Virus record (IMG/VR): IMGVR_UViG_3300032285_001024 | Location: 1 to 32,700 of that record | Reading direction: 5' to 3' (one strand) | DNA: 32,700 nt | DNA from: a virus | In this document: positions 790-27,658 of the stretch, one piece after another | Position numbering within the stretch: the stretch's first letter is position 1 | How the letters are laid out: the number at the start of each line of letters is the position of its first letter | Translations under genes and position numbers: made by a program | The notes under the pieces: generated by a model | The model's database searches: none | What the model saw: only the letters and a program-made list of their open reading frames with translations | Told to the model about the DNA's origin: nothing

Positions 790-1379
790 CAACAGCTTTT
801 CAGTCTAATGCCTTTCAAAACTCTGGTTTTCAGGTCGATCCTGTAACTGGGATTCTGTATGTCGTAGATGAGAATGATAGTGGTAGTTTTGTAGGACAGG
901 TCGGTATTTCAGGGGTTCTCTCTGTTACCGACCAAGATGATTCATGCAATATCCAAGGCACAGTTGCACAGCCAAACAATATGGATATGCACGATGGCTT
1001 TACTCCTGAAGAAATCAAGAGAGCTAGAGCATTAGACAAAAAGATAGCCAAATTAGAAGCTAAGAAGCGACAGGCTATCCTTGACAAGAGATTAAAGAGA
1101 AAACAAGCCCTTAGAGACTTAGTTTCACCACCTGTTGCACAAATACAACAGGAAGAAGTAGAATCCTTATTGGAAGTTCAAGTTGGTAAACCGCCAGTTG
1201 ATCTTAAAAAAGTCAATGCAAACCTTATCCGACTTGAGCAACAGAAAAAACAGTTGCTTAAAGCTGTAGAGTTAAGAATGCAAATTGCACAAGCACAGAT
1301 GCAATTAGCTATTTTTGAAGCTCAGAAAAAAGCAGAAGAACAGGATGAGGAAGAATCAATACTTGCATTACTTTTGTAA
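786..1379 (+). CDS. Coiled-coil structural protein candidate with FQxNAFQ N-terminus
   Basis: The 197-residue product starts with an aromatic repeat (AFQSNAFQNSGFQ) seen at the beginning of many phage virion-associated proteins. A beta-rich segment (about residues 17-60) follows. From about residue 75 to the end the protein is highly charged and helical, rich in Lys, Glu, Gln and Leu, and probably a long coiled coil. Its start is coupled to the upstream stop by ATGA. Its place between fibre genes and scaffold suggests a head or tail accessory role, but this is inference from position. A long minus-strand reading inside it (830-1087) is a shadow. Confidence 0.65.
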   Translation: MTTAFQSNAFQNSGFQVDPVTGILYVVDENDSGSFVGQVGISGVLSVTDQDDSCNIQGTVAQPNNMDMHDGFTPEEIKRARALDKKIAKLEAKKRQAILDKRLKRKQALRDLVSPPVAQIQQEEVESLLEVQVGKPPVDLKKVNANLIRLEQQKKQLLKAVELRMQIAQAQMQLAIFEAQKKAEEQDEEESILALLL

Positions 1380-17427: not shown

Positions 17428-17546
17428 TTTAATTTCCTATGGTAAGCATCAGTTGGATTGTTTTTCATGCTTCTTAATAAATCATCAATGGTTTCAAAAT
17501 ATTGAATGAAATGAAGCCCTGCTGGTGTATATATATCAAAAGTCAT
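17424..17546 (-). CDS. Tiny ORF, 40 residues, in the leftward operon
   Basis: The reading MTFDIYTPAGLHFIQYFETI, then DDLLRSMKNNPTDAYHRKLK, begins on an ATGA overlap with the upstream stop (17543-17546) and ends on an ATGA overlap with the downstream start (17424-17427). It looks like a small mixed alpha/beta peptide without membrane or Cys motifs. Exact coupling at both ends is the evidence that it is translated. I do not recognise a family. Confidence 0.6.
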   Translation of the reverse strand: MTFDIYTPAGLHFIQYFETIDDLLRSMKNNPTDAYHRKLK

Positions 17547-17746
17547 TTAAAAAATTTCCTTAAAATCATTTCGGCATAAATAACAGTCTCTCTGTGTTGT
17601 TTTTTTACAACAAATGAGCCATTAGGCATTCTTGCATTTAGTAAAGTGTGTAATTCATCCGCTATTTCTATCGGATCTACTACCTTTGGCACACAATTAC
17701 AATTTCTACCTTGATTGCAATTTTGATTACAGGTCATATTTTTCAT
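17543..17746 (-). CDS. Small Cys-rich-start phage protein (CNQNCNQGRNCNC)
   Basis: I place the start at 17746 (67 residues). An ATG at 17737 would also serve and begins MTCNQNCNQGRNCNC. A longer reading from 17791 overlaps the upstream gene by 65 bases and is unlikely. The N-terminal CNQNCNQGRxCxC cluster (five Cys in about 15 residues) is a motif I recall at the start of small uncharacterised phage proteins, perhaps metal-binding. The remainder (DPIEIADELHTLLNARMPNG) is helical and ends AEMILRKFFK. It contains a minus-strand copy of the TTGTTGTAAAAAAACAAC repeat (17596-17613). Confidence 0.68.
   Translation of the reverse strand: MKNMTCNQNCNQGRNCNCVPKVVDPIEIADELHTLLNARMPNGSFVVKKQHRETVIYAEMILRKFFK
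17596..17613 (-). repeat. Inverted-repeat motif, copy 3 (TTGTTGTAAAAAAACAAC)
   Basis: On the minus strand this 18-mer differs by one base from the two identical plus-strand copies at 22259-22276 and 25891-25908. It has GTTG and CAAC arms around an 8-base A-rich centre. Here it lies inside a gene and encodes VVKKQ. Confidence 0.75.
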
Positions 17747-18107
17747 TGATTGGGTTGAAGAGCCATGCAGCAGCATAGTCTGGTCGAACAATTACTCTAG
17801 TCGGCTTTCTAGCAGCTTCTCTAGCTTTTAGTCTGAACTTTCTATTGAACTCTTCAGGGGTATAAGCTAATGGCTTTTCAGCATCAGGCTGATTGCCAGC
17901 CATATAAAAAACTGTGAATTGACCTGTAGTTCTCTTGTAATTATGAATATAGATTTTTTTTCTAAATCTTAGTTCAGTAATATATTTGCATACTGACTTG
18001 ACCGACATATTGACCGCATCAGCCATAGTGTGTCGGCTCATGGGTTCTGTTGTCATCTTTTGTAACAAAAACTCAATTTTTGCTTTTTTTGTTTCTTCTT
18101 TTTTCAT
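17727..18107 (-). CDS. Winged-helix-like DNA-binding protein
   Basis: The start is set at 18107 (126 residues), where AGGTG lies 7-8 bases upstream. A longer open frame to 18185 reads through the tRNA gene and is an artefact. Residues 1-60 read as a helix-turn-helix domain: IEFLLQKMTTEPMSRHTMAD, then AVNMSVKSVCKYITELRFRK, then the wing KIYIHNYKR. The C-terminal half has a basic helix (NRKFRLKAREAARKPTR) and RPDYAAAWLFNP, familiar from phage HTH proteins. It probably binds DNA as an early or middle regulator or replication accessory; the target is unknown. It lies right behind the tRNA gene. Confidence 0.75.
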   Translation of the reverse strand: MKKEETKKAKIEFLLQKMTTEPMSRHTMADAVNMSVKSVCKYITELRFRKKIYIHNYKRTTGQFTVFYMAGNQPDAEKPLAYTPEEFNRKFRLKAREAARKPTRVIVRPDYAAAWLFNPINEKYDL

Positions 18108-18124
18108 ATATACACCTATAAATT

Positions 18125-18200
18125 TGGCTGCCTCGGCTGGTCTCGAACCAGCGACCCACAGATTAACAGTCTGTTGCTCTACCAACTGAGCTACAAGGCA
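18125..18200 (-). tRNA. tRNA-Asn (GTT anticodon)
   Basis: On the minus strand a complete cloverleaf can be drawn: acceptor TGCCTTG/CGAGGCA (one G-T pair), D-arm AGCTCAGTTGGTAGAGCA, anticodon arm CAGACTGTTAATCTG with loop CTGTTAA giving anticodon GTT, and T-arm GCTGGTTCGAGACCAGC. Discriminator G and an encoded CCA follow (18125-18128). It is embedded in the leftward operon 17 bases before the next gene, so the transcript must be processed. Phage-encoded tRNAs commonly support AT-rich codon use; many Asn codons are used in the virion proteins here. Confidence 0.95.
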
Positions 18201-19459: not shown

Positions 19460-19989
19460 GCTAACTCCTTTTTCTTTAACTCTTTTGCATCATTGATTAG
19501 TTTTAATGCTTCTTTGTCTTTACTAGCGGCTTTATAAGCTTCAGCAAATGCAACCTTTAGCTCATCCATAGTTGTAGCTCTACCGATTGTTTCAATCAAT
19601 TTAGTGGCATCTACAGGCTCTGCATCTTCCTGTGGGACATCCTCACCAGCATAGATATATAAACCGATACCAAAGCAAGCGATAGCCTTTGCCAAGCATC
19701 TCATCATGGCTTTGTTAATAGCTACTGCATCAGGGTTAGGAATGGCTTGATTTCTGTGATCCATAACAGGCAAGTGCATCTTGATAGTCTTGCCAAAAGC
19801 ATTGACATCACAAAATACCATCAAGCTATCTTTACCGCATGGAGCTGGTTGCTTAAATGACCAGGTAGCCTTTGGATCTTGCAATAATAACTGATCGACT
19901 GCCCATGCCCATGAAAGGTAACTAAGACCATTCTTTTTCTCGATATGCTGACCGACATCAATTTTTCTTAATTCTGCATATTTACTCAT
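19456..19989 (-). CDS. DUF1071/Sak3-type single-strand annealing protein
   Basis: The 177-residue protein begins with the family-typical YAELRKIDVGQHIEKKNGLS and YLSWAWAVDQLL. A beta-rich core follows (ATWSFKQP, DSLMVFCDVNAFGKTIKMHL), then PVMDHRNQAIPNPDAVAINK and MMRCLAKAIACFGIGLYIYAGED. I recognise these as features of DUF1071, the Sak3 branch of RAD52-like annealing proteins. It should coat 3' single strands and promote annealing with the YqaJ exonuclease. The C-terminal 50 residues are a charged, probably flexible helical tail. Its start overlaps the stop of a tiny ORF (ATGA), with AAGGAG just upstream. Confidence 0.9.
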   Translation of the reverse strand: MSKYAELRKIDVGQHIEKKNGLSYLSWAWAVDQLLLQDPKATWSFKQPAPCGKDSLMVFCDVNAFGKTIKMHLPVMDHRNQAIPNPDAVAINKAMMRCLAKAIACFGIGLYIYAGEDVPQEDAEPVDATKLIETIGRATTMDELKVAFAEAYKAASKDKEALKLINDAKELKKKELA

Positions 19990-20932: not shown

Positions 20933-21029
20933 TTTTTTCTCCTAAAAACCTAATCGGTACAAAAGACTTTATTGGATTAAACTTACACCAAACTTACAAA
21001 TGCAATTTATTTTCTAGGTATTTTCCCTA
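20933..21029. promoter_or_regulatory. Divergent early control region with 11-bp phased repeats
   Basis: This 97-base A+T-rich gap separates the leftward operon from the rightward one, so both early promoters should lie here. AAACTTACA occurs twice, at 20979-20987 and 20990-20998, exactly 11 bases apart, one helical turn. This is the spacing expected of a protein binding cooperatively on one face. No clear -35/-10 pair matches consensus on either strand, so a phage or host activator may be needed. Confidence 0.6.
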
Positions 21030-21397: not shown

Positions 21398-22165
21398 ATG
21401 CACTATTACTACCACCATATTGGTGATTTTATTAAAGACACTTCATTCTTGACCAATGAAGAGCTTGGAATCTATATGAAGCTAATTTGGCTTTACTATG
21501 ATTCAGAATTGCCATTAGAAAATAATCCATCAACTCTAGCAGTAAAAATTGGAGCTAGAGACAAGGTCAATCAGGTAGAGGGAATCCTCAATCTATTTTT
21601 CAAGCTAGAAAACAATAAATGGCATCAATCTAGGTGCAACAGAGAAATAGAAAACTACAAGAAATTATCTGAGTCTGGCAAAAAAGGTGCTGAAAAAAGA
21701 TGGGGTAATCATAGGGATGCTATAGCCACCCCATTGCCACCCCATAGCCACCCTAATGCGACCCCAATAGCAACCAATAACCAAGAACCAATAACCAATA
21801 ACCAAATAAATACACCTAGCGGTGTAGATGAGTCTATTTGGAAAGATTATTTAAAAATTAGAAAAGCAGCTAAAAAACCGATTACACAAACTGCATTAAA
21901 AGGCTTACAAAGAGAAGCTGATATTGCTAAGAAATCATTGCAAGAAGTTTTAACTATTTGCATAGAAAGATCATGGGTAGGATTTAAAGCAGATTGGATT
22001 GGTAAGGACTCTGTAAGCAAACAAGCGGATGATAAGTCTTGGCAATTTAGCAATGAAGGCATAGTGGCCAAAGCTAATGAGCTAGGATTAAGGTCTGAGG
22101 GGTTGAGTTACCAACAACTTAAAGATAAATGCTTGTATGTCATGACTAATAGGGCTTTGCAATGA
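21398..22165 (+). CDS. DUF1376 replication-initiation/replisome organiser protein
   Basis: The 255-residue protein starts with a typical DUF1376 (YdaU-like) domain: YYYHHIGDFIKDTSFLTNEE, LGIYMKLIWLYYDSELPLE, and further on KWHQSRCNREIENYKKLSE. A basic, Pro/Asn/Gln-rich linker (residues about 92-140) joins it to a C-terminal helical domain (LQREADIAKKSLQEVLTICI, RSWVGFKADWI) like that of phage replication proteins that load helicase. It probably marks or opens the origin and recruits host DnaB; the origin is not identified. Its TGA overlaps the next ATG. Confidence 0.85.
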   Translation: MHYYYHHIGDFIKDTSFLTNEELGIYMKLIWLYYDSELPLENNPSTLAVKIGARDKVNQVEGILNLFFKLENNKWHQSRCNREIENYKKLSESGKKGAEKRWGNHRDAIATPLPPHSHPNATPIATNNQEPITNNQINTPSGVDESIWKDYLKIRKAAKKPITQTALKGLQREADIAKKSLQEVLTICIERSWVGFKADWIGKDSVSKQADDKSWQFSNEGIVAKANELGLRSEGLSYQQLKDKCLYVMTNRALQ

Positions 22166-22308
22166 TTTATGAATTATTTGATGAATTTGGGTTAATCAGG
22201 ATTGTTAAATCAAGGACTGAAGCTAGATATTTAGTTTCATGCCGACCTGATTGGAAAATTGTTGCAAAAAAACAACAGAAACCTGTTTATGAGGATGCAC
22301 CTTTTTGA
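22162..22308 (+). CDS. Small hypothetical protein (48 residues)
   Basis: The reading MIYELFDEFGLIRIVKSRTE, then ARYLVSCRPDWKIV and a basic KKQQKPVYEDAPF end, starts on an ATGA overlap with the DUF1376 gene and ends on an overlap with the next start. It is below the usual 60-codon limit. The pattern LFDEFGxIRIVxSRxEA..LV..RPDW is familiar from short phage proteins of unknown function. It contains copy 1 of the TTGTTGCAAAAAAACAAC repeat (22259-22276). Confidence 0.65.
   Translation: MIYELFDEFGLIRIVKSRTEARYLVSCRPDWKIVAKKQQKPVYEDAPF
22259..22276 (+). repeat. Inverted-repeat motif, copy 1 (TTGTTGCAAAAAAACAAC)
   Basis: This 18-mer is identical to the one covering the terS promoter at 25891-25908. 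It lies inside the coding region of the 48-residue gene, where it encodes VAKKQ, and about 30 bases before the next start. Confidence 0.8.
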
Positions 22309-22493
22309 ATGATCTGTTTGAAGATACAAGCTCAGAACAATACCGATATGAGTGCGAATTGCGGTTTATATCGAGCATGGATTTATCAGGCAGAAGGCAG
22401 TATTTAGGTAAGGTTTTAGAGAAAAGGGGTGTTGTAGCCCTAAACAAACTAAAGGAAGGATTGGAAAAAATATGGGCACAAAAGAAGAAATAA
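22305..22493 (+). CDS. Small hypothetical protein with TTG start
   Basis: The frame opens at TTG 22305, overlapping the previous TGA in the same four-base manner as the ATGA junctions elsewhere. GAGG at 22291-22294 is well placed for it. The nearby ATG at 22309 is in another frame. The 62-residue product (start NDLFEDTSSEQYRYECELRF) has a helical segment LSGRRQYLGKVLEKRG and ends in a Lys-rich AQKKK. I recall similar short proteins near phage replication genes with no known role. A start at the in-frame ATG 22377 would lose 24 residues. Confidence 0.65.
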   Translation: MNDLFEDTSSEQYRYECELRFISSMDLSGRRQYLGKVLEKRGVVALNKLKEGLEKIWAQKKK

Positions 22494-22831
22494 ATGATTC
22501 AATGGTTGCAATCGACCCTAATAAAGCCATCAACTTTATTATTGAAAATGCTCCAAAGTATGCCGAGGCTAAGTCAAACAGGGTTTACCTTGAAAACTTC
22601 TTAAAGGTCAAGAAAGCTCAGTTAATGCAAGACTGCAAGAATGAGCCTGTCAGCCGAGCCGAAGCTTACTCATTAGCTCATCCTGATTACCTAGTCATTG
22701 TTGAAGGCATCAAGATTGCCATGCTAGAAGAAGAAAAGCTAAAGTATTTCCTAGAAGCTGCTAGGTTAAGAGCAGAAATTTGGAGATCACAGGAAGCATC
22801 TAATCGAAACCAAGACAGGCTTACAAAATGA
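22472..22831 (+). CDS. Conserved-looking helical phage protein
   Basis: The 119-residue, all-helical protein has the segment INFIIENAPKYAEAKSNRVY, then LENFLKVKKAQLMQ, SRAEAYSLAHPDYL and a charged helix LKYFLEAARLRAEIWRSQE. I recall this arrangement from small proteins in phage replication and recombination regions; the function is unknown. GGAAGG precedes ATG 22472, though the ATG at 22502 would avoid the 22-base overlap. Its end overlaps the next ATG. Confidence 0.7.
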   Translation: MGTKEEINDSMVAIDPNKAINFIIENAPKYAEAKSNRVYLENFLKVKKAQLMQDCKNEPVSRAEAYSLAHPDYLVIVEGIKIAMLEEEKLKYFLEAARLRAEIWRSQEASNRNQDRLTK

Positions 22832-23259
22832 ATGGAAATAACTCTTTTGCTGAAAGAAATGCTGGTGCAAATCTAGGTGAGGAGTTATTTGAGCAATACT
22901 GTAAAGAAAAACAGGTATTTTTTAAGCGATTAGGCTTTGATGAAAAAAAAGACAAAATATCTGAGTTTTATAAATTGCCTACTTATATTAGAAATTTGCC
23001 TGATTATTTGGTGGTTACCCCTAAAGGCCATAGGCTAATTATGGTGAAAGGAACTGCCAATATAAAGCAAGCCGAAGTCAATATGATTCCATTATTTTTG
23101 GAATGGTATTACAGCAAAGATTGTCCTCTTTACTATGCTTTCTGTTTTAAAGATAAAAAAATAGCCTTCAGAACCCCTGACCAGGTGATTGAATTGTATC
23201 AGGGTGCTACTGATAAACAATGGTCTGATAAAGTAATTTATCGTACACTTGCACTATGA
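22828..23259 (+). CDS. Hypothetical protein, possible degenerate PD-(D/E)XK nuclease
   Basis: The 143-residue protein has an alpha/beta core reminiscent of restriction-endonuclease folds: a helix EELFEQYCKEKQVFFKRLGF, then YIRNLPDYLVVTPKG with Pro-Asp, then RLIMVKGTANIKQAE. In a nuclease, an acidic-x-Lys would be expected in the last strand, but here it is Met-Val-Lys. A helix LFLEWYYSKDCPL and strand YYAFCFKDKKIAF follow. It may be an inactive relative or a holliday-junction-resolvase-like protein with a shifted acidic residue. ATGA overlaps couple it on both sides. Confidence 0.6.
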   Translation: MNGNNSFAERNAGANLGEELFEQYCKEKQVFFKRLGFDEKKDKISEFYKLPTYIRNLPDYLVVTPKGHRLIMVKGTANIKQAEVNMIPLFLEWYYSKDCPLYYAFCFKDKKIAFRTPDQVIELYQGATDKQWSDKVIYRTLAL

Positions 23260-23531
23260 CCAAAGAGCAAAGGAAGCATTATGATCGAGTTGCCAGACTT
23301 GGGTGCGGTGTATGTCGAAGTCTCGGATATGACACAGCCGATGTCGGATGCGAAATTCATCATATTAGACGAGCAGGGAGAAGAGATAGCAGCCCTGTCA
23401 TTGGACTTTGCCCTGAGCATCACCGAGGCAACTCAGGAGTTCATGGAATGGGTCGAAGGGCTTGGGAAAAGAAGTTTGCATTAACAGAAGAATCATTATT
23501 AGAAGAGACTATGAGGTTGTTAAATGATTGA
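23256..23531 (+). CDS. Ref-like HNH nuclease
   Basis: The 91-residue protein has CGVC (residues 17-20), EIHHIRRAGRRDSSPVIGLC (His35, His36), CPEHHRG (Cys52, His55, His56) and GVHGMGRRAWEKKFALTEE. This order matches the HNH family related to P1 Ref, a RecA-dependent nuclease, and to NinG-type phage recombination proteins. It probably binds zinc and cuts DNA in recombination intermediates. It overlaps genes on both sides. A second open reading in another frame of the same DNA (23281-23484) is a shadow. Confidence 0.85.
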   Translation: MTKEQRKHYDRVARLGCGVCRSLGYDTADVGCEIHHIRRAGRRDSSPVIGLCPEHHRGNSGVHGMGRRAWEKKFALTEESLLEETMRLLND

Positions 23532-24237
23532 TTTAAGGCATGGAGATTGTCTTGAGGTAATGAAATCTATTGCTGATAAGTCAATAGATGCCATTATTTG
23601 TGATTTGCCTTATGGCACTACCGCTTGTAAATGGGATACTGTTATTCCTTTTGAGCCATTATGGAAACAATACAAAAGAATCATTAAAGACAATGGGGCA
23701 ATAATTTTATTTGGTCAAGAGCCTTTTAGCACTACTTTAAGAATGTCTAATCTTAAAGATTATAAATATGATTGGATATGGGACAAAGTAAAACCAGGTG
23801 CATTTGCTTCAGCTAAATATCAACCTCTTAGACAGCATGAACTAATAAGTGTTTTTTATAAAAATTTTGGGGCATATAAGCCACAAATGATTAAACGAGA
23901 TAAATCTAAAACATCCAAACAATATAGCGAATCTTTGTCTGCTAATTGCACTATTGATGGAAAAGAAAGAACTTATACGGAATATTATCCAAAAACTATA
24001 CTTAAATATTCTAATGCTAATCAAAAAGGTAAAGTTCATCCTACTCAAAAGCCTGTAGATTTGCTTGAATATCTTGTAAAAACCTATACAAATGAAGGTG
24101 ATACAGTATTAGATAACTGTATGGGATCAGGTACAACAGGATTAGCTTGTAAAAATTTAGGTAGAAAGTTTATTGGTATTGAGCAAGATGCCAAATATTT
24201 TGAAATTGCAAAGAACAGAATAAATGCTGAATCATGA
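23524..24237 (+). CDS. DNA methyltransferase, N6-adenine/N4-cytosine, beta class
   Basis: The 237-residue enzyme shows motif IV as DLPYG (residues 27-31), a known variant of DPPY, before motif I DNCMGSGTTG (197-206), the order of beta-class amino-methyltransferases. HPTQKP (172-177) and the C-terminal GRKFIGIEQD complete the S-adenosylmethionine site. It methylates an exocyclic amino group in DNA; the recognition sequence is unknown. No cognate restriction gene lies nearby, so it is probably an orphan that protects phage DNA or marks it. It overlaps the Ref-like gene by 8 bases. Confidence 0.92.
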   Translation: MIDLRHGDCLEVMKSIADKSIDAIICDLPYGTTACKWDTVIPFEPLWKQYKRIIKDNGAIILFGQEPFSTTLRMSNLKDYKYDWIWDKVKPGAFASAKYQPLRQHELISVFYKNFGAYKPQMIKRDKSKTSKQYSESLSANCTIDGKERTYTEYYPKTILKYSNANQKGKVHPTQKPVDLLEYLVKTYTNEGDTVLDNCMGSGTTGLACKNLGRKFIGIEQDAKYFEIAKNRINAES

Positions 24238-24385
24238 CAAGAATAGAAGTGACCCTACTTTAAGGGTTTGCGATGTATGCAGGAAAAGAAAACCAAGGGA
24301 ATTAGGCAAATATGTACCAAATCCTGACAAATTAACTCAAAAATGGCATTGCCTTCAATGTTGGGATAGAAGAAATCATAGATAA
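24224..24385 (+). CDS. Small zinc-ribbon protein in overlapping frame
   Basis: A 53-residue frame starts at an ATG 14 bases inside the end of the methyltransferase gene, in the +1 frame. It encodes MLNHDKNRSDPTLRVCDVCR, then KRKPRELGKYVPNPDKLTQ and WHCLQCWDRRNHR. Two Cys pairs (CDVC at 16-19, CLQC at 43-46) and the basic surroundings make a probable zinc ribbon that binds nucleic acid. The ribosome site is weak, so coupling to the methyltransferase is likely. Its stop is immediately followed by an extended -10 sequence. Confidence 0.68.
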   Translation: MLNHDKNRSDPTLRVCDVCRKRKPRELGKYVPNPDKLTQKWHCLQCWDRRNHR

Positions 24386-24394
24386 TGATATAAT
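24386..24394 (+). promoter_or_regulatory. Extended -10 promoter before HNH homing endonuclease
   Basis: TGATATAAT matches TGnTATAAT, just behind the zinc-ribbon stop. No strong -35 is seen. The start would lie near 24401, at the beginning of the hairpin (24403-24430). A very similar TGATACAAT follows the homing endonuclease gene (24958-24966). Confidence 0.6.
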
Positions 24395-24402
24395 AAACAA
24401 AA

Positions 24403-24430
24403 CCCTCAAGGTTCGGCTAAACCAAGAGGG
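24403..24430 (+). promoter_or_regulatory. Symmetrical hairpin in HNH gene leader
   Basis: CCCTC (24403-24407) pairs with GAGGG (24426-24430), and GGTT (24410-24413) pairs with AACC (24420-24423), with an AA/AA internal loop between stems and a six-base loop CGGCTA. It is followed by CTTCTAACC, not a T-run, so it is not a typical terminator. The ribosome site GAGGT is 21 bases downstream and not hidden. It would be at the very 5' end of a transcript from 24386-24394 and may protect or regulate it. Confidence 0.55.
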
Positions 24431-24461
24431 CTTCTAACCACCACAATATAGAGGTATTGCT

Positions 24462-24956
24462 ATGGCTGATAAAGATTCTAAACTATCTAAAGAATTATTG
24501 CATACTATTTTTGAATACAAAGATGGTTGTTTGTATAACAAAATATACAGAAGTTCTAAATCAAAAATTGGTGATAAAGCTGGCACTTTAGCTGCAACAG
24601 GTTATTACACAACTTATGTAAATTCAGTAAGATTTTCAATACACAGGCTTATTTTTCTTATGCACCATGGGTATTTGCCCAAAGTTATTGATCATATCAA
24701 TGGCATAAAAACAGATAATCGAATAGAAAACCTTAGAGAAGCCACTAATTCTGAAAATAATTGCAATAGAAAATCAAACAATAAATCAGGTATTAGAGGA
24801 GTTCATTGGAACAAATATCACAAAAAATGGACTGCTGTTTGTTGGAAAGATAGAAAAGCTTATTATTTGGGTCATTTTAAAAATATAGAAGATGCTAAAA
24901 AAGCTATTTTTGAAGGCAGAAAAAAGCATCATAAAGAGTTTGCAAACTATGAATAA
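24462..24956 (+). CDS. Free-standing HNH homing endonuclease with AP2 domain
   Basis: The 164-residue protein has an HNH_3-type core with FSIHRLIFLMHHG (His61), then VIDHINGIKTDNRIENLREA (Asp77, His78, Asn80, Asn86). An AP2 DNA-binding domain (residues about 108-164) follows: SGIRGVHWNKYHKKWTAVCW and AYYLGHFKNIEDAKKA. This HNH-AP2 layout is typical of mobile homing endonucleases of phages. It interrupts an otherwise gap-free operon, has its own leader with extended -10 and hairpin, and lies between two similar promoter sequences, all signs of an inserted unit. GAGGT precedes the start. Confidence 0.93.
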   Translation: MADKDSKLSKELLHTIFEYKDGCLYNKIYRSSKSKIGDKAGTLAATGYYTTYVNSVRFSIHRLIFLMHHGYLPKVIDHINGIKTDNRIENLREATNSENNCNRKSNNKSGIRGVHWNKYHKKWTAVCWKDRKAYYLGHFKNIEDAKKAIFEGRKKHHKEFANYE

Positions 24957-24957
24957 A

Positions 24958-24966
24958 TGATACAAT
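24958..24966 (+). promoter_or_regulatory. Extended -10 promoter before DUF5856-like gene
   Basis: TGATACAAT fits an extended -10 element, 32 bases before the ATG at 24998, with TTGCAA at 24940-24945 as a poorly spaced -35 (15 bases). It lies directly behind the HNH stop codon. Confidence 0.5.
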
Positions 24967-24997
24967 GAATTAGTGAGAAGTGATTTAGGGGAAAGCC

Positions 24998-25387
24998 ATG
25001 CAAGTACCCATTTTTTTGGAGCAGTCGATGGAAAAGCAGATGGCAACCTTTCTTTCAACCCTGTTAAATGCAGGGACTAATGCCCATTTTTTCCATTGGG
25101 CAACCAACTCATACAGTCAGCACAAAGCTTTAGGCAAATTTTATGAAGAAGTCATTGAGCTTACAGATGATTTAGCAGAAGCTTATTTTGGTGTATATGG
25201 TCAGATTAAAGAGTTTCCTAATACTTACCATACTCCTACAGAACCACTTAAATATTTAGAATCTCTACAAAAATTCATTAAAGAAGCAAGGCCTGATCTT
25301 CCTAAAGAGACTGAGCTAATTCAATTAGTTGATAATATTGCAGACTTAGTGGATACAACTGTCTATAAACTCAAATTCCTCAAATAA
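24998..25387 (+). CDS. DUF5856-like, ferritin-fold-like phage protein
   Basis: The 129-residue helical protein has MATFLSTLLNAGTNAHFFHW, then ATNSYSQHKALGKFYEEVIE and LTDDLAEAYFGVYGQI. The spacing of HFFHW, SYSQHKALGKFYE and D-LAEAYFG resembles Dps/ferritin helices, and I recall it as the DUF5856 family that is widespread in phages. Whether a metal centre exists is unclear: His30, His33, His43, Glu50 and Asp57 are candidates. AGGGGAAAG precedes the start. The role is unknown; iron handling or a regulator are possibilities that should not be assumed. Confidence 0.75.
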   Translation: MQVPIFLEQSMEKQMATFLSTLLNAGTNAHFFHWATNSYSQHKALGKFYEEVIELTDDLAEAYFGVYGQIKEFPNTYHTPTEPLKYLESLQKFIKEARPDLPKETELIQLVDNIADLVDTTVYKLKFLK

Positions 25388-25396
25388 GGACTCATC

Positions 25397-25582
25397 ATGC
25401 CATTATGGAAATCAGCCAAAAAAGAAGCAGTAGGCGAGAATATTAAGCGAGAAGAAGCTGCTGGCAAGCCTAAAAAGCAAGCTGTAGCCATTGCATTAAA
25501 TACTCAAAGAGAAGCTGCTAAAGGCAAGAGAAAAGCCAAGCTTGAAGATGCTTATGCTAAATATATTGAGGAAAAAGCATGA
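25397..25582 (+). CDS. Small basic helical protein
   Basis: The 61-residue protein is rich in Lys, Ala and Glu (PLWKSAKKEAVGENIKREEA). It contains GKPKKQAVAIALNTQREAAK, a motif common in small phage proteins (GKPxKQAxAIAL) of unknown function; a family such as DUF6496 comes to mind but is not certain. It is probably helical and nucleic-acid-associated by charge. Its stop overlaps the next ATG (ATGA, 25579-25582). Confidence 0.7.
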   Translation: MPLWKSAKKEAVGENIKREEAAGKPKKQAVAIALNTQREAAKGKRKAKLEDAYAKYIEEKA

Positions 25583-25740
25583 AGTTCTGGAGATTCGAGT
25601 TTAAATATGTAACTCCTGAAAAAGAGGATACAGTTGTTTATTCTCCTACAGAGTTTCCATTCCCTATTAAATCAACAATGCCTAAAAAGCCTGTTGCCAA
25701 GAAAACTGTTGCTAAAAAAACTACAAAGGCTAAAAAATGA
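25579..25740 (+). CDS. Small protein with histone-H1-like lysine tail
   Basis: The 53-residue protein has a mixed N-terminal part (MKFWRFEFKYVTPEKEDTVV, then YSPTEFPFPI) and a C-terminal tail MPKKPVAKKTVAKKTTKAKK. The tail's PKKPVAKK and VAKKTTKAKK repeats resemble linker-histone and bacterial histone-like (Hc1, AlgP) tails that condense DNA. It is coupled to both neighbours by ATGA overlaps. It lies just before the packaging genes, so a DNA-condensing or packaged role is conceivable, but that is inference. Confidence 0.62.
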   Translation: MKFWRFEFKYVTPEKEDTVVYSPTEFPFPIKSTMPKKPVAKKTVAKKTTKAKK

Positions 25741-25886
25741 AGCCAATGGACAGAAAATTTAAAGAAAAAGATGCTTTATTAAGAGAGCATAAAGAAACTA
25801 CTCTTGAGAAGAATCAAGCTCAAAGAATCAAGAGAAGAGAAGCTTTAAACAAGCTATTTAACAAAGAGGTGAAAGACCCTTTCTAG
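25737..25886 (+). CDS. Small charged helical protein (49 residues)
   Basis: The reading MKPMDRKFKEKDALLREHKE, then TTLEKNQAQRIKRREALNKL and FNKEVKDPF, begins on an ATGA overlap and ends at 25886, the last gene before the terS promoter. It is almost one continuous charged helix, basic in balance. I recognise no family. Coupled translation supports the call. Confidence 0.58.
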   Translation: MKPMDRKFKEKDALLREHKETTLEKNQAQRIKRREALNKLFNKEVKDPF

Positions 25887-25890
25887 TAGC

Positions 25891-25908
25891 TTGTTGCAAA
25901 AAAACAAC
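25891..25908 (+). repeat. Inverted-repeat motif, copy 2, overlapping terS promoter
   Basis: TTGTTGCAAAAAAACAAC, identical to 22259-22276 and one base different from the minus-strand copy at 17596-17613. GTTG and CAAC arms flank CAAAAAAA. The -35 element TTGCAA (25894-25899) lies inside it, which is where an operator would repress or an activator would help. Confidence 0.8.
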
Positions 25909-25923
25909 TAAATGTAGTATATT
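25894..25923 (+). promoter_or_regulatory. Promoter of the terminase-portal-fibre operon
   Basis: TTGCAA (25894-25899) and TATATT (25918-25923) are separated by 18 bases, giving a sigma70-like promoter. The start would be near 25930. A leader resembling those at 1783 and 4253 (TTAACTAATTACTTAGG, 25933-25949) leads to the ATG at 25956. The -35 is embedded in the repeated inverted motif. Confidence 0.65.
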
Positions 25924-25955
25924 CAATATATCTTAACTAATTACTTAGGCAAGGT

Positions 25956-26321
25956 ATGAATACAAAGACAAAGCAATTAGAAAATTTAAGCACAGTTTCT
26001 AATCCTGAATACCCTATTGAAGAAGTCAAAAAGCCTAAAGTAGGCGAAAATAGGGGGAATGCAGGGATGGGCAGACCAAAAGGTGTGCCTAATAAGTCCA
26101 CAGCAAAGGCTAGAGAGGCTTTTGCACTATTTGTGGAGAGTAACTCAGAAAGAATGCAAGAATGGCTTGAAGAGATTGCTAGTGATCCTAAGCATGGCCC
26201 TAAAGCTGCCTTTGATTTGTTACTAGCTGTATCTGAATACCATATTCCTAAGCTTGCTAGAACTGAAATGGTTGGAGATGAGCAGCAACCAGTAAGGCAT
26301 ATATATCAATGGAAGAAATAG
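25956..26321 (+). CDS. Terminase small subunit candidate
   Basis: The 121-residue protein has a disordered N-terminus and a basic segment MGRPKGVPNKSTAKAREAFA, typical of DNA-binding small phage proteins next to terL (DUF5681-like). A helical region follows (ERMQEWLEEIASDPKHGPKA, then AFDLLLAVSEYHIPKLARTE). Small terminase subunits recognise phage DNA and load the large subunit. It overlaps terL by 13 bases, the strongest contextual support. The AAGG just before ATG is close, but the leader is shared with other late genes. Confidence 0.78.
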   Translation: MNTKTKQLENLSTVSNPEYPIEEVKKPKVGENRGNAGMGRPKGVPNKSTAKAREAFALFVESNSERMQEWLEEIASDPKHGPKAAFDLLLAVSEYHIPKLARTEMVGDEQQPVRHIYQWKK

Positions 26322-27658
26322 ACTATATTGATGTAGTGCATGAGTTTGAATATGAGTCTAGGCCTGTTTTTGATGATTTCCATGAAAGAGAACAAAGATG
26401 GGCTGTCATTGTTGCTCATAGGCGATGCGGTAAAACTGTTGCCTGTATCAATGACCTAATCAGAAGAGCTTTAGAAGAAGGCAAGCCTGATGGCAGATAT
26501 GCTTATGTAGCTCCTTATTATGGACAGGCTAAGACTATTGCTTGGGATTATCTAAAGAGATATGCCGAGCCAGCCACAGAAAAGGCTAATCAATCTGAGC
26601 TATGGGTAGAACTGCACAATGGTTCAAGAATCAGACTATTTGGTGCTGATAACCCTGATGCTCTCCGAGGCTTATATCTAGATGGCATTGTTTTGGATGA
26701 ATATGCCGATATGAAACCCTCTATTTGGGGTGCGGTTATTCGACCATTACTAGCTGACCGACAAGGGTGGGCTACTTTCATTGGAACTCCTAAAGGCCAT
26801 AATGCTTTTTGGGAAGTCTATAACAATGCTACTAAATCTGATGCCTGGTTTGTCAAGACTCTTAGGGCTAGTCAGACAGGCTTATTGCATGACACAGAGC
26901 TTAGAGATGCTTTCCATGCGATGACTGAGGATCAATACCTACAAGAGTTTGAATGCTCATTTGAAGCAGCTATTCTTGGTGCTTACTATGGTAAAGAGAT
27001 GAGAGTTCTTACTGACCAAAACAGAATCACTAAAGTGGACTATGACCCTATGTTCCCTGTTCATACTGCTTGGGACTTAGGTTATTCAGATGACACCGCT
27101 ATTTGGTGGTATCAGGTAGTGCATGGGGAAATCCGCTTATTGGAATACCATAGCTCTCATGGGCAGACTGTAGCCTACTATACAGGGCTAATTCAGTCTA
27201 AAAACTACCATTATGGAACTCATTGGTTACCCCATGATGCAAGGGCAAAAACACTAGCAAGCGGTGGAAAATCAATTATTGAGCAAATTTCTAACAAAAT
27301 TCCTATAGAATCTATTAAAATAGTGCCAAGTTTGTCGCTTCAAGATGGAATACAAGCAGTTCGACTAGCATTAAACCGATGCTGGTTCGATGCTGACAAA
27401 ACTGAAGATGGTATTGAATGCTTAAGACAGTACCAAAGAGAGTATGATGAGGATAAGAAGGTGTTTAGGGATAAACCTAGGCATGATTGGACTTCTCATG
27501 GTGCTGATGCCTTCAGGATGTTAGCAATAGCTTGGAAAGAAGAAGAGAAACTGCCCTCGAAAGACGACTCGATTAGGGGACTTACTGTTGGTACTAATGA
27601 AACAACTCTTAATGAGATGTGGAGAACAACCCCTAAACAATTTAGTGGAAGAATTTGA
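26309..27658 (+). CDS. Terminase large subunit
   Basis: The 449-residue packaging motor shows an N-terminal ATPase with Walker A AHRRCGKT (residues 36-43), Walker B IVLDE (127-131) and coupling motif TFIGTPKG (156-163). The C-terminal RNase-H-like nuclease begins at AWDLGYSDDTA (Asp256), with LPHDAR and SHGADAFRML carrying further acidic residues. It pumps DNA into the procapsid through the portal and cuts it. The adjacent portal gene completes the packaging machine. The packaging type (headful or site-specific) cannot be decided here; apparent circular permutation suggests headful. Confidence 0.96.
   Translation: MEEIDYIDVVHEFEYESRPVFDDFHEREQRWAVIVAHRRCGKTVACINDLIRRALEEGKPDGRYAYVAPYYGQAKTIAWDYLKRYAEPATEKANQSELWVELHNGSRIRLFGADNPDALRGLYLDGIVLDEYADMKPSIWGAVIRPLLADRQGWATFIGTPKGHNAFWEVYNNATKSDAWFVKTLRASQTGLLHDTELRDAFHAMTEDQYLQEFECSFEAAILGAYYGKEMRVLTDQNRITKVDYDPMFPVHTAWDLGYSDDTAIWWYQVVHGEIRLLEYHSSHGQTVAYYTGLIQSKNYHYGTHWLPHDARAKTLASGGKSIIEQISNKIPIESIKIVPSLSLQDGIQAVRLALNRCWFDADKTEDGIECLRQYQREYDEDKKVFRDKPRHDWTSHGADAFRMLAIAWKEEEKLPSKDDSIRGLTVGTNETTLNEMWRTTPKQFSGRI

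Follow-up and report, generated by a model that had tools for sequence, protein, structure and literature searches.

A recurrent inverted repeat at terminase promoters and in early regions of uncultivated freshwater phages, a candidate operator for a winged-helix protein

The window analysed here is a 32.7-kb uncultivated virus record (IMG/VR, IMGVR_UViG_3300032285_001024), a freshwater phage encoding a small terminase (terS), a large terminase (terL) and a portal protein. A short inverted repeat, TGTTGY-N6-RCAACA (the dyad), recurs in the window and among its relatives, one copy lying on the probable terS promoter, and is very probably a conserved functional element. As a whole reading we lean, by a little, towards a DNA operator of a dimeric, phage-linked regulator that probably delays the packaging and early genes, the leading candidate being the winged-helix (WH) protein encoded at 17727-18107. 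To our knowledge, almost no regulatory sites have been described for uncultivated freshwater phages; the dyad supplies a specific site open to testing, and the WH protein a candidate regulator. The nearest annotated terL relatives of the window (~44–46%) are a Rhodoferax phage, environmental phage records and a Methylophilales phage, and gene order around terS/terL is the same in 80 terL relatives. In what follows, L### denotes fetched loci and G### phage records of relatives, and WH+ and WH- denote phages with or without a detectable gene for a relative of the WH protein. Coordinates are collected in Table 1.

A preliminary description of this DNA reported two identical 18-mers, a near-identical copy on the other strand, and a repeat that exceeded chance. 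All of this was confirmed. The sequence TTGTTGCAAAAAAACAAC is present at 22259-22276 and 25891-25908 (both plus strand) and a one-mismatch copy, TTGTTGTAAAAAAACAAC, at 17596-17613 (minus strand). Allowing up to three mismatches, the 18-mer occurs four times in the window against 0.22 expected (SD 0.48) from dinucleotide-preserving shuffles (n = 100), none of which reached four. The GTTG-N8-CAAC core was found five times (1134, 11779, 17596, 22261 and 25893), compared with 0.36 in shuffles, and again none of 100 reached the observed number. Pooling of sites showed that the conserved unit is the inverted repeat rather than the A-tract 18-mer. The A7 run of the original description is dispensable, because the six-base centre differs among relatives. 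In the pooled sites either strand may have C or T at the fifth base, irrespective of the other, and C..A combinations are common as a result. Perfect copies of the unit occur in the window at 1133-1150, 17595-17612 and 22260-22277, and the copy at 25892-25909 has one mismatch at its end.

The enrichment is specific to the N8 spacing. In a set of 40 loci whose sole fetch criterion was that they encode a relative of the WH protein, GTTG-N8-CAAC occurs 46 times (42 with Y..R), while twelve other spacings gave 1–17 matches each (mean 6.6) and everted controls 3–13. Among loci picked irrespective of the dyad, intergenic GTTG..CAAC matches numbered 11 at N8 and 0–3 at other gaps, although inspection suggests that three of the 11 are coding. 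Dyads of CCCT, TGCG, GTAC and ATTA with the N8 geometry equalled or outranked the GTTG dyad in this crude intergenic count. The first three were discarded as comparable elements, since inspection showed conserved coding sequence, and the ATTA dyad is attributed, from its sequence, to the conserved terS leader. Palindromic half-sites, fixed spacing and enrichment over controls are expected of an operator for a dimeric DNA-binding regulator, and the dyad shows all three. Chance or an A-tract artefact as the origin of the motif is ruled out by the shuffles, the spacing controls and the placement of the sites.

That placement is clearest in front of terS. The 25891 copy is intergenic, lying between ORF 25737-25886 and the terS start at 25956, and had been proposed to be an operator covering the -35 element. 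Coverage of the -35 is plausible given the TTGCAA/TATATT pair (9/12 matches), although a consensus scan of the region found no more promoter-like sites than in shuffles. For that reason the case for a promoter depends on the -10 and the leader behind it (type TTAACTTATCTTAATCAACCACTTGGGTAAGGT in relatives), which are strongly conserved (window 25918-25955; at least 120 viral-contig stretches). The same conserved segment might also serve as a packaging or regulator site. In the window the -35 lies inside the left dyad arm and the right arm falls within the spacer, and the dyad likewise lies over the -35 of the terS promoter in L004, L005/L091 and the L032-type group. In G049, G051, G052 and G055 the terS dyad takes the form GTTG-TATATTT-G-CAAC, and in G049 and G055 a consensus scan matches the TATATT inside the dyad, as a -10, to a TTGCTA 17 nt upstream. 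The site thus overlaps core promoter elements in both cases (-35 in the window and L032 group, -10 in G049 and G055), and the occurrence of one dyad on different core elements in different terS promoters suits a repressor operator. When 16 promoters were picked by their upstream gene and -10 alone, 14 kept the dyad, with substitutions confined to the centre. G032 carries the dyad upstream of another Nu1-like small-terminase gene.

Several lineages retain the dyad on a core element of the terS promoter, which supports the proposal that the 25891 copy acts as an operator, and on balance it appears likely that the element represses terS. Its conservation before terS in related phages is, however, partial. 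About 95% of terS promoters sampled irrespective of the dyad lack it, and in dyad-less terS promoters of relatives the upstream ORF extends to the -10. A universal terS element is therefore ruled out. As a mechanism, we infer a dimeric regulator with a role in early–late timing, each subunit of which would hold one TGTTGY half-site, with a distance of about one helical turn between the two; the leading candidate is the WH protein encoded by the phage itself. Since the operator overlaps the -35 (window and kin) or the -10 (another branch), a bound dimer would block RNA polymerase, and the packaging genes would stay silent for as long as the regulator is neither diluted nor inactivated. Through the copies that relatives carry at the head of their right early operon, and those behind the WH gene in the left early operon, the same protein would tune early transcription, by a block of initiation or as a roadblock. 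Such an operator suggests a way for integrase-lacking lytic phages to hold back their packaging genes.

The early sites are found at matching places in several relatives. In L208, G025, G051 and G052 the dyad is intergenic and directly 5' of the first right-early gene (VRR-NUC-like), and the window and L208 are set apart there by a clean indel, of the size of the dyad, that lies between CCCTA and ATG. In G015, G021, G057, G059, G060 and G061 it is again intergenic and follows tRNA-Asn in the left early operon. The window has its own tRNA-Asn (GTT) gene at 18125-18200 (minus strand) in that operon, just 5' of the WH gene, and in relatives it is the 3' end of this tRNA that the dyad follows.

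Because many sites stand in leaders or just 3' of stop codons and their arms are complementary, an action as RNA has to be considered, in which a small stem-loop with a purine-rich loop, similar to lambda boxB, would serve in antitermination, processing or translational control of leaders and intercistronic regions. The dyad shares with lambda nut/boxB a short stem, a purine-rich loop and a place in early-operon leaders, sites of the L032, tRNA and G049 types fold at -4.8 to -6.7 kcal/mol, and early-site dyads often have a TAGGG..CCCTA inverted repeat ahead of them. Against this, the fifth pair is often C..A, which an RNA stem would reject, and no compensatory changes were seen in the GTTG/CAAC arms. 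The window terS hairpin is weak (-2.0 kcal/mol, z -1.09), as are the L208-type early sites (-2.3 kcal/mol), and weak folding disfavours the RNA stem-loop. With the -10 inside it in G049 and G055, the dyad lies ahead of the transcription start there, and this placement on core promoter elements also departs from nut/boxB. Nor is the dyad an intrinsic terminator, as no T-tract follows it, and no terminator-like call (GC-rich stem plus T-tract) was obtained at the window site, L292 or L368. Action as RNA is accordingly improbable, and the element probably acts as DNA.

The other two 18-mer copies, first described as sites in early genes, are both coding and in the same codon phase (GTT-GYA-AAA-AAA-CAA-C), within ORF 22162-22308 (plus strand) and ORF 17543-17737 (minus strand). 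They raise the question of whether the whole pattern could come from chance and coding together, with V-A/V-K-K-Q peptides (GTT GYA AAA AAA CAA C) and A-tracts in an AT-rich genome producing the repeats and the terS copy being coincidental. The shared phase of two of the three copies is in keeping with this, as is the behaviour of the 22259 copy, whose homologues retain the WKIVAKK peptide yet lose CAAC, with the exception of G050 (WH+), which has the whole dyad. This copy is probably mostly explained by the conserved WKIVAKK coding, and if the matches at 22259, 1134 and 11779 are considered one by one, chance plus coding explains them best. It fits the 17596 copy poorly, where the codons GTT GTA AAA AAA CAA CAC are nearly invariant in 20 distinct homologues of ORF 17543: V43 is GTT and V44 is GTA in 20/20, while V52 is GTA, GTG or GTT in 10, 6 and 4, respectively. 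A few further codons in these homologues are also invariant. The frozen synonymous codons point to constraint at the DNA level, the dyad also lies within ORF 17543 homologues of relatives, and this copy may be an example of an operator embedded in coding DNA. As a regulatory site the 22259 copy is the weaker of the two. For the element as a whole, chance and coding would be a most implausible explanation in view of the shuffles, the N8 specificity at intergenic sites, the repeated placement on terS core promoter elements, the frozen synonymous sites and the association with WH.

The WH protein was modelled (AlphaFold, pLDDT 81) as a winged helix (HTH plus wing), and the best PDB matches of the predicted fold are ArsR/MarR-type regulators (1uly, ZitR, NolR, AdcR), consistent with a wHTH fold. 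Pfam gave no match above the family cut-off, and the best PDB sequence match had E = 0.034. In an initial set of loci, tblastn with the protein matched only five, and all five records carry dyads. No match to it was found in bacterial and archaeal (GTDB) genomes or in GenBank phages. For viral loci, a search with the single protein reaches close relatives only and found none, and a profile (alignment) search found 40 WH loci. Strict sites occur in 13/13 near-complete WH+ phages (2.5 per genome) versus 6/28 WH- phages (0.32 per genome). A Fisher test gave 1.5e-6, which overstates the link, as the genomes are related and not independent. Among the genes examined, the WH gene is the one most strongly linked to the motif, and we put the chance that the element is bound by WH at about even.

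Several observations weigh against this assignment and against the operator reading in general. Dyads are carried by WH- phages, namely G016 and the L032-type group at terS and G003 and G006 in the early module, and no diverged WH was detected in G016, G003 or G006 by profile or by C-terminal motif. The WH+ phages G021, G050, G056, G057 and G060-G062 lack a strict terS dyad. The WH recognition helix partly differs by subfamily (SVKSVCKYIT, SVVFVARYIT, SYKSLCKYVS) while the DNA motif is constant. The dyad was not found at the window's own divergent early promoter, and some perfect copies are coding (1133, and a structural gene of G052/G053/G055). The preliminary description's suggestion of the 17727 protein as a possible regulator is, like its operator idea, largely upheld, though weakened by the dyads of G016, G003 and G006. 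Taken together, WH- phages with the dyad, WH+ phages without it at terS and the variable helices bring in a host factor or another phage protein. In the former case the dyad would be a host transcription factor site common to the infected bacteria, and WH would be linked merely through the shared host lineage of the WH+ phages. Dyads at matching places in WH- phages, a motif that is constant across varying recognition helices, and a geometry that suits many dimeric regulators are all compatible with a host factor, but the density of sites in WH+ phages is several-fold that in other related phages, and we regard this explanation as rather unlikely. G016 also encodes a Cro/YdaS-like small HTH protein (L386/L387, G016 19574-19804), and this WH- phage with a terS dyad thereby offers an alternative regulator candidate.

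The DNA operator that we favour was compared with known phage systems. The operators of lambda type, bound by CI or Cro dimers, are palindromes over the -35 or -10, with an AT-rich centre and half-sites about one turn apart. The dyad shares the palindrome, the position, the AT-rich centre and the half-site distance, and differs in that the candidate WH is an ArsR/MarR-like winged helix and not a lambda-type HTH, in that the sites are single, and in lying also on the late terminase promoter. The late-promoter element recognised by P2 Ogr and P4 Delta, TGT-N12-ACA, is an activator site centred near -55. The dyad formally fits this pattern, which is a resemblance only, and unlike that element it covers the -35 or -10; a literature search on the Ogr-type element returned no usable source. 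Temperate Cluster A mycobacteriophages of the L5 type carry more than 20 asymmetric 13-mers, oriented with transcription, that are bound by a repressor monomer (PMC9283540). As with the L5 operators and stoperators, one short motif is repeated across the genome, at promoters and in intergenic or gene-boundary places, where a block of initiation, and possibly of elongation too, is proposed (PMC9283540). In contrast to stoperators, the sites here number 1–5 per genome, are palindromic rather than asymmetric, and lie in some cases inside genes. There was also no match to the tyrosine integrase family (PF00589) in 15 records, unlike in the temperate L5 group, the search being confined to PF00589 and other integration routes lying outside it. 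Repeated phage operators are, as a kind, already well known (L5 operators/stoperators, PMC9283540), while what appears new is the site itself, the family of the protein and the placement within coding DNA. Tentatively, and with the odds against it, these data could describe a new pair in uncultivated freshwater phages that lack an integrase, in which a small ArsR/MarR-like WH and TGTTGY-N6-RCAACA operators or roadblocks set the timing of early and packaging transcription, with some sites hidden in coding DNA and frozen at synonymous positions, and with WH-less relatives keeping or borrowing sites. On the basis of the site, regulated promoters may be predicted in further metagenomic phages of the group.

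Table 1. Features of the window connected with the TGTTGY-N6-RCAACA dyad.
Feature	Position	Strand	Remarks
Perfect copy, TGTTGCACAAATACAACA	1133..1150	+	Within structural ORF 786-1379
64-aa ORF (FVVKKQHR)	17543..17737	-	Directly 3' of WH gene
Dyad copy	17595..17612	-	Inside ORF 17543-17737; frozen synonymous sites in 20 distinct homologues
WH protein, candidate regulator	17727..18107	-	ATG at 18107; longer TTG reading runs into tRNA
Conserved 48-aa early ORF	22162..22308	+	Carries 22259 copy
Dyad copy	22260..22277	+	Inside ORF 22162-22308, codes IVAKKQQ; probably mostly protein-driven
49-aa ORF	25737..25886	+	Ends just 5' of dyad; 149 tblastn matches in loci
Dyad, TGTTGCAAAAAAACAACT	25892..25909	+	Upstream of terS; proposed operator covering -35 and 5' part of spacer; position and N8 shared with L004, L005/L091, L032-type group
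Probable sigma-70-type late promoter	25894..25923	+	TTGCAA 25894-25899, 18-nt spacer, TATATT 25918-25923; position and downstream leader conserved
terS leader, window version CAATATATCTTAACTAATTACTTAGGCAAGGT	25924..25955	+	Strongly conserved leader in relatives
terS (small terminase)	25956..26321	+	First gene behind dyad; syntenic with terL in 69 loci
terL (large terminase)	26309..27658	+	

Other repeats were noted near the early genes. A TAGG..CCCTA inverted repeat (21015-21029) stands directly 5' of the start of the VRR-NUC-like gene of the window, and the same repeat precedes the dyad in relatives, the WH- phages G003 and G006 included. Before the right early gene there are also direct repeats of ACTTACA, 11 bp apart (20981-20998), with similar ones in L208 and G025, which are possible regulator or replication sites. 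Further along the right early operon of the window, reading of the translations only suggests a DNA-methyltransferase-like protein (23524-24237) and an HNH-endonuclease-like protein (24462-24956). Another recurrent intergenic inverted repeat, CTTTATAATGGTAAAG, is found in L037, L038, L040, L047 and L128. A leader hairpin of the type ACTGCNNNNNNGCAGT occurs in G015, G021, G056, G061 and G062, upstream of the gene after the tRNA/dyad region, and resembles mobile stem-loop cassettes.

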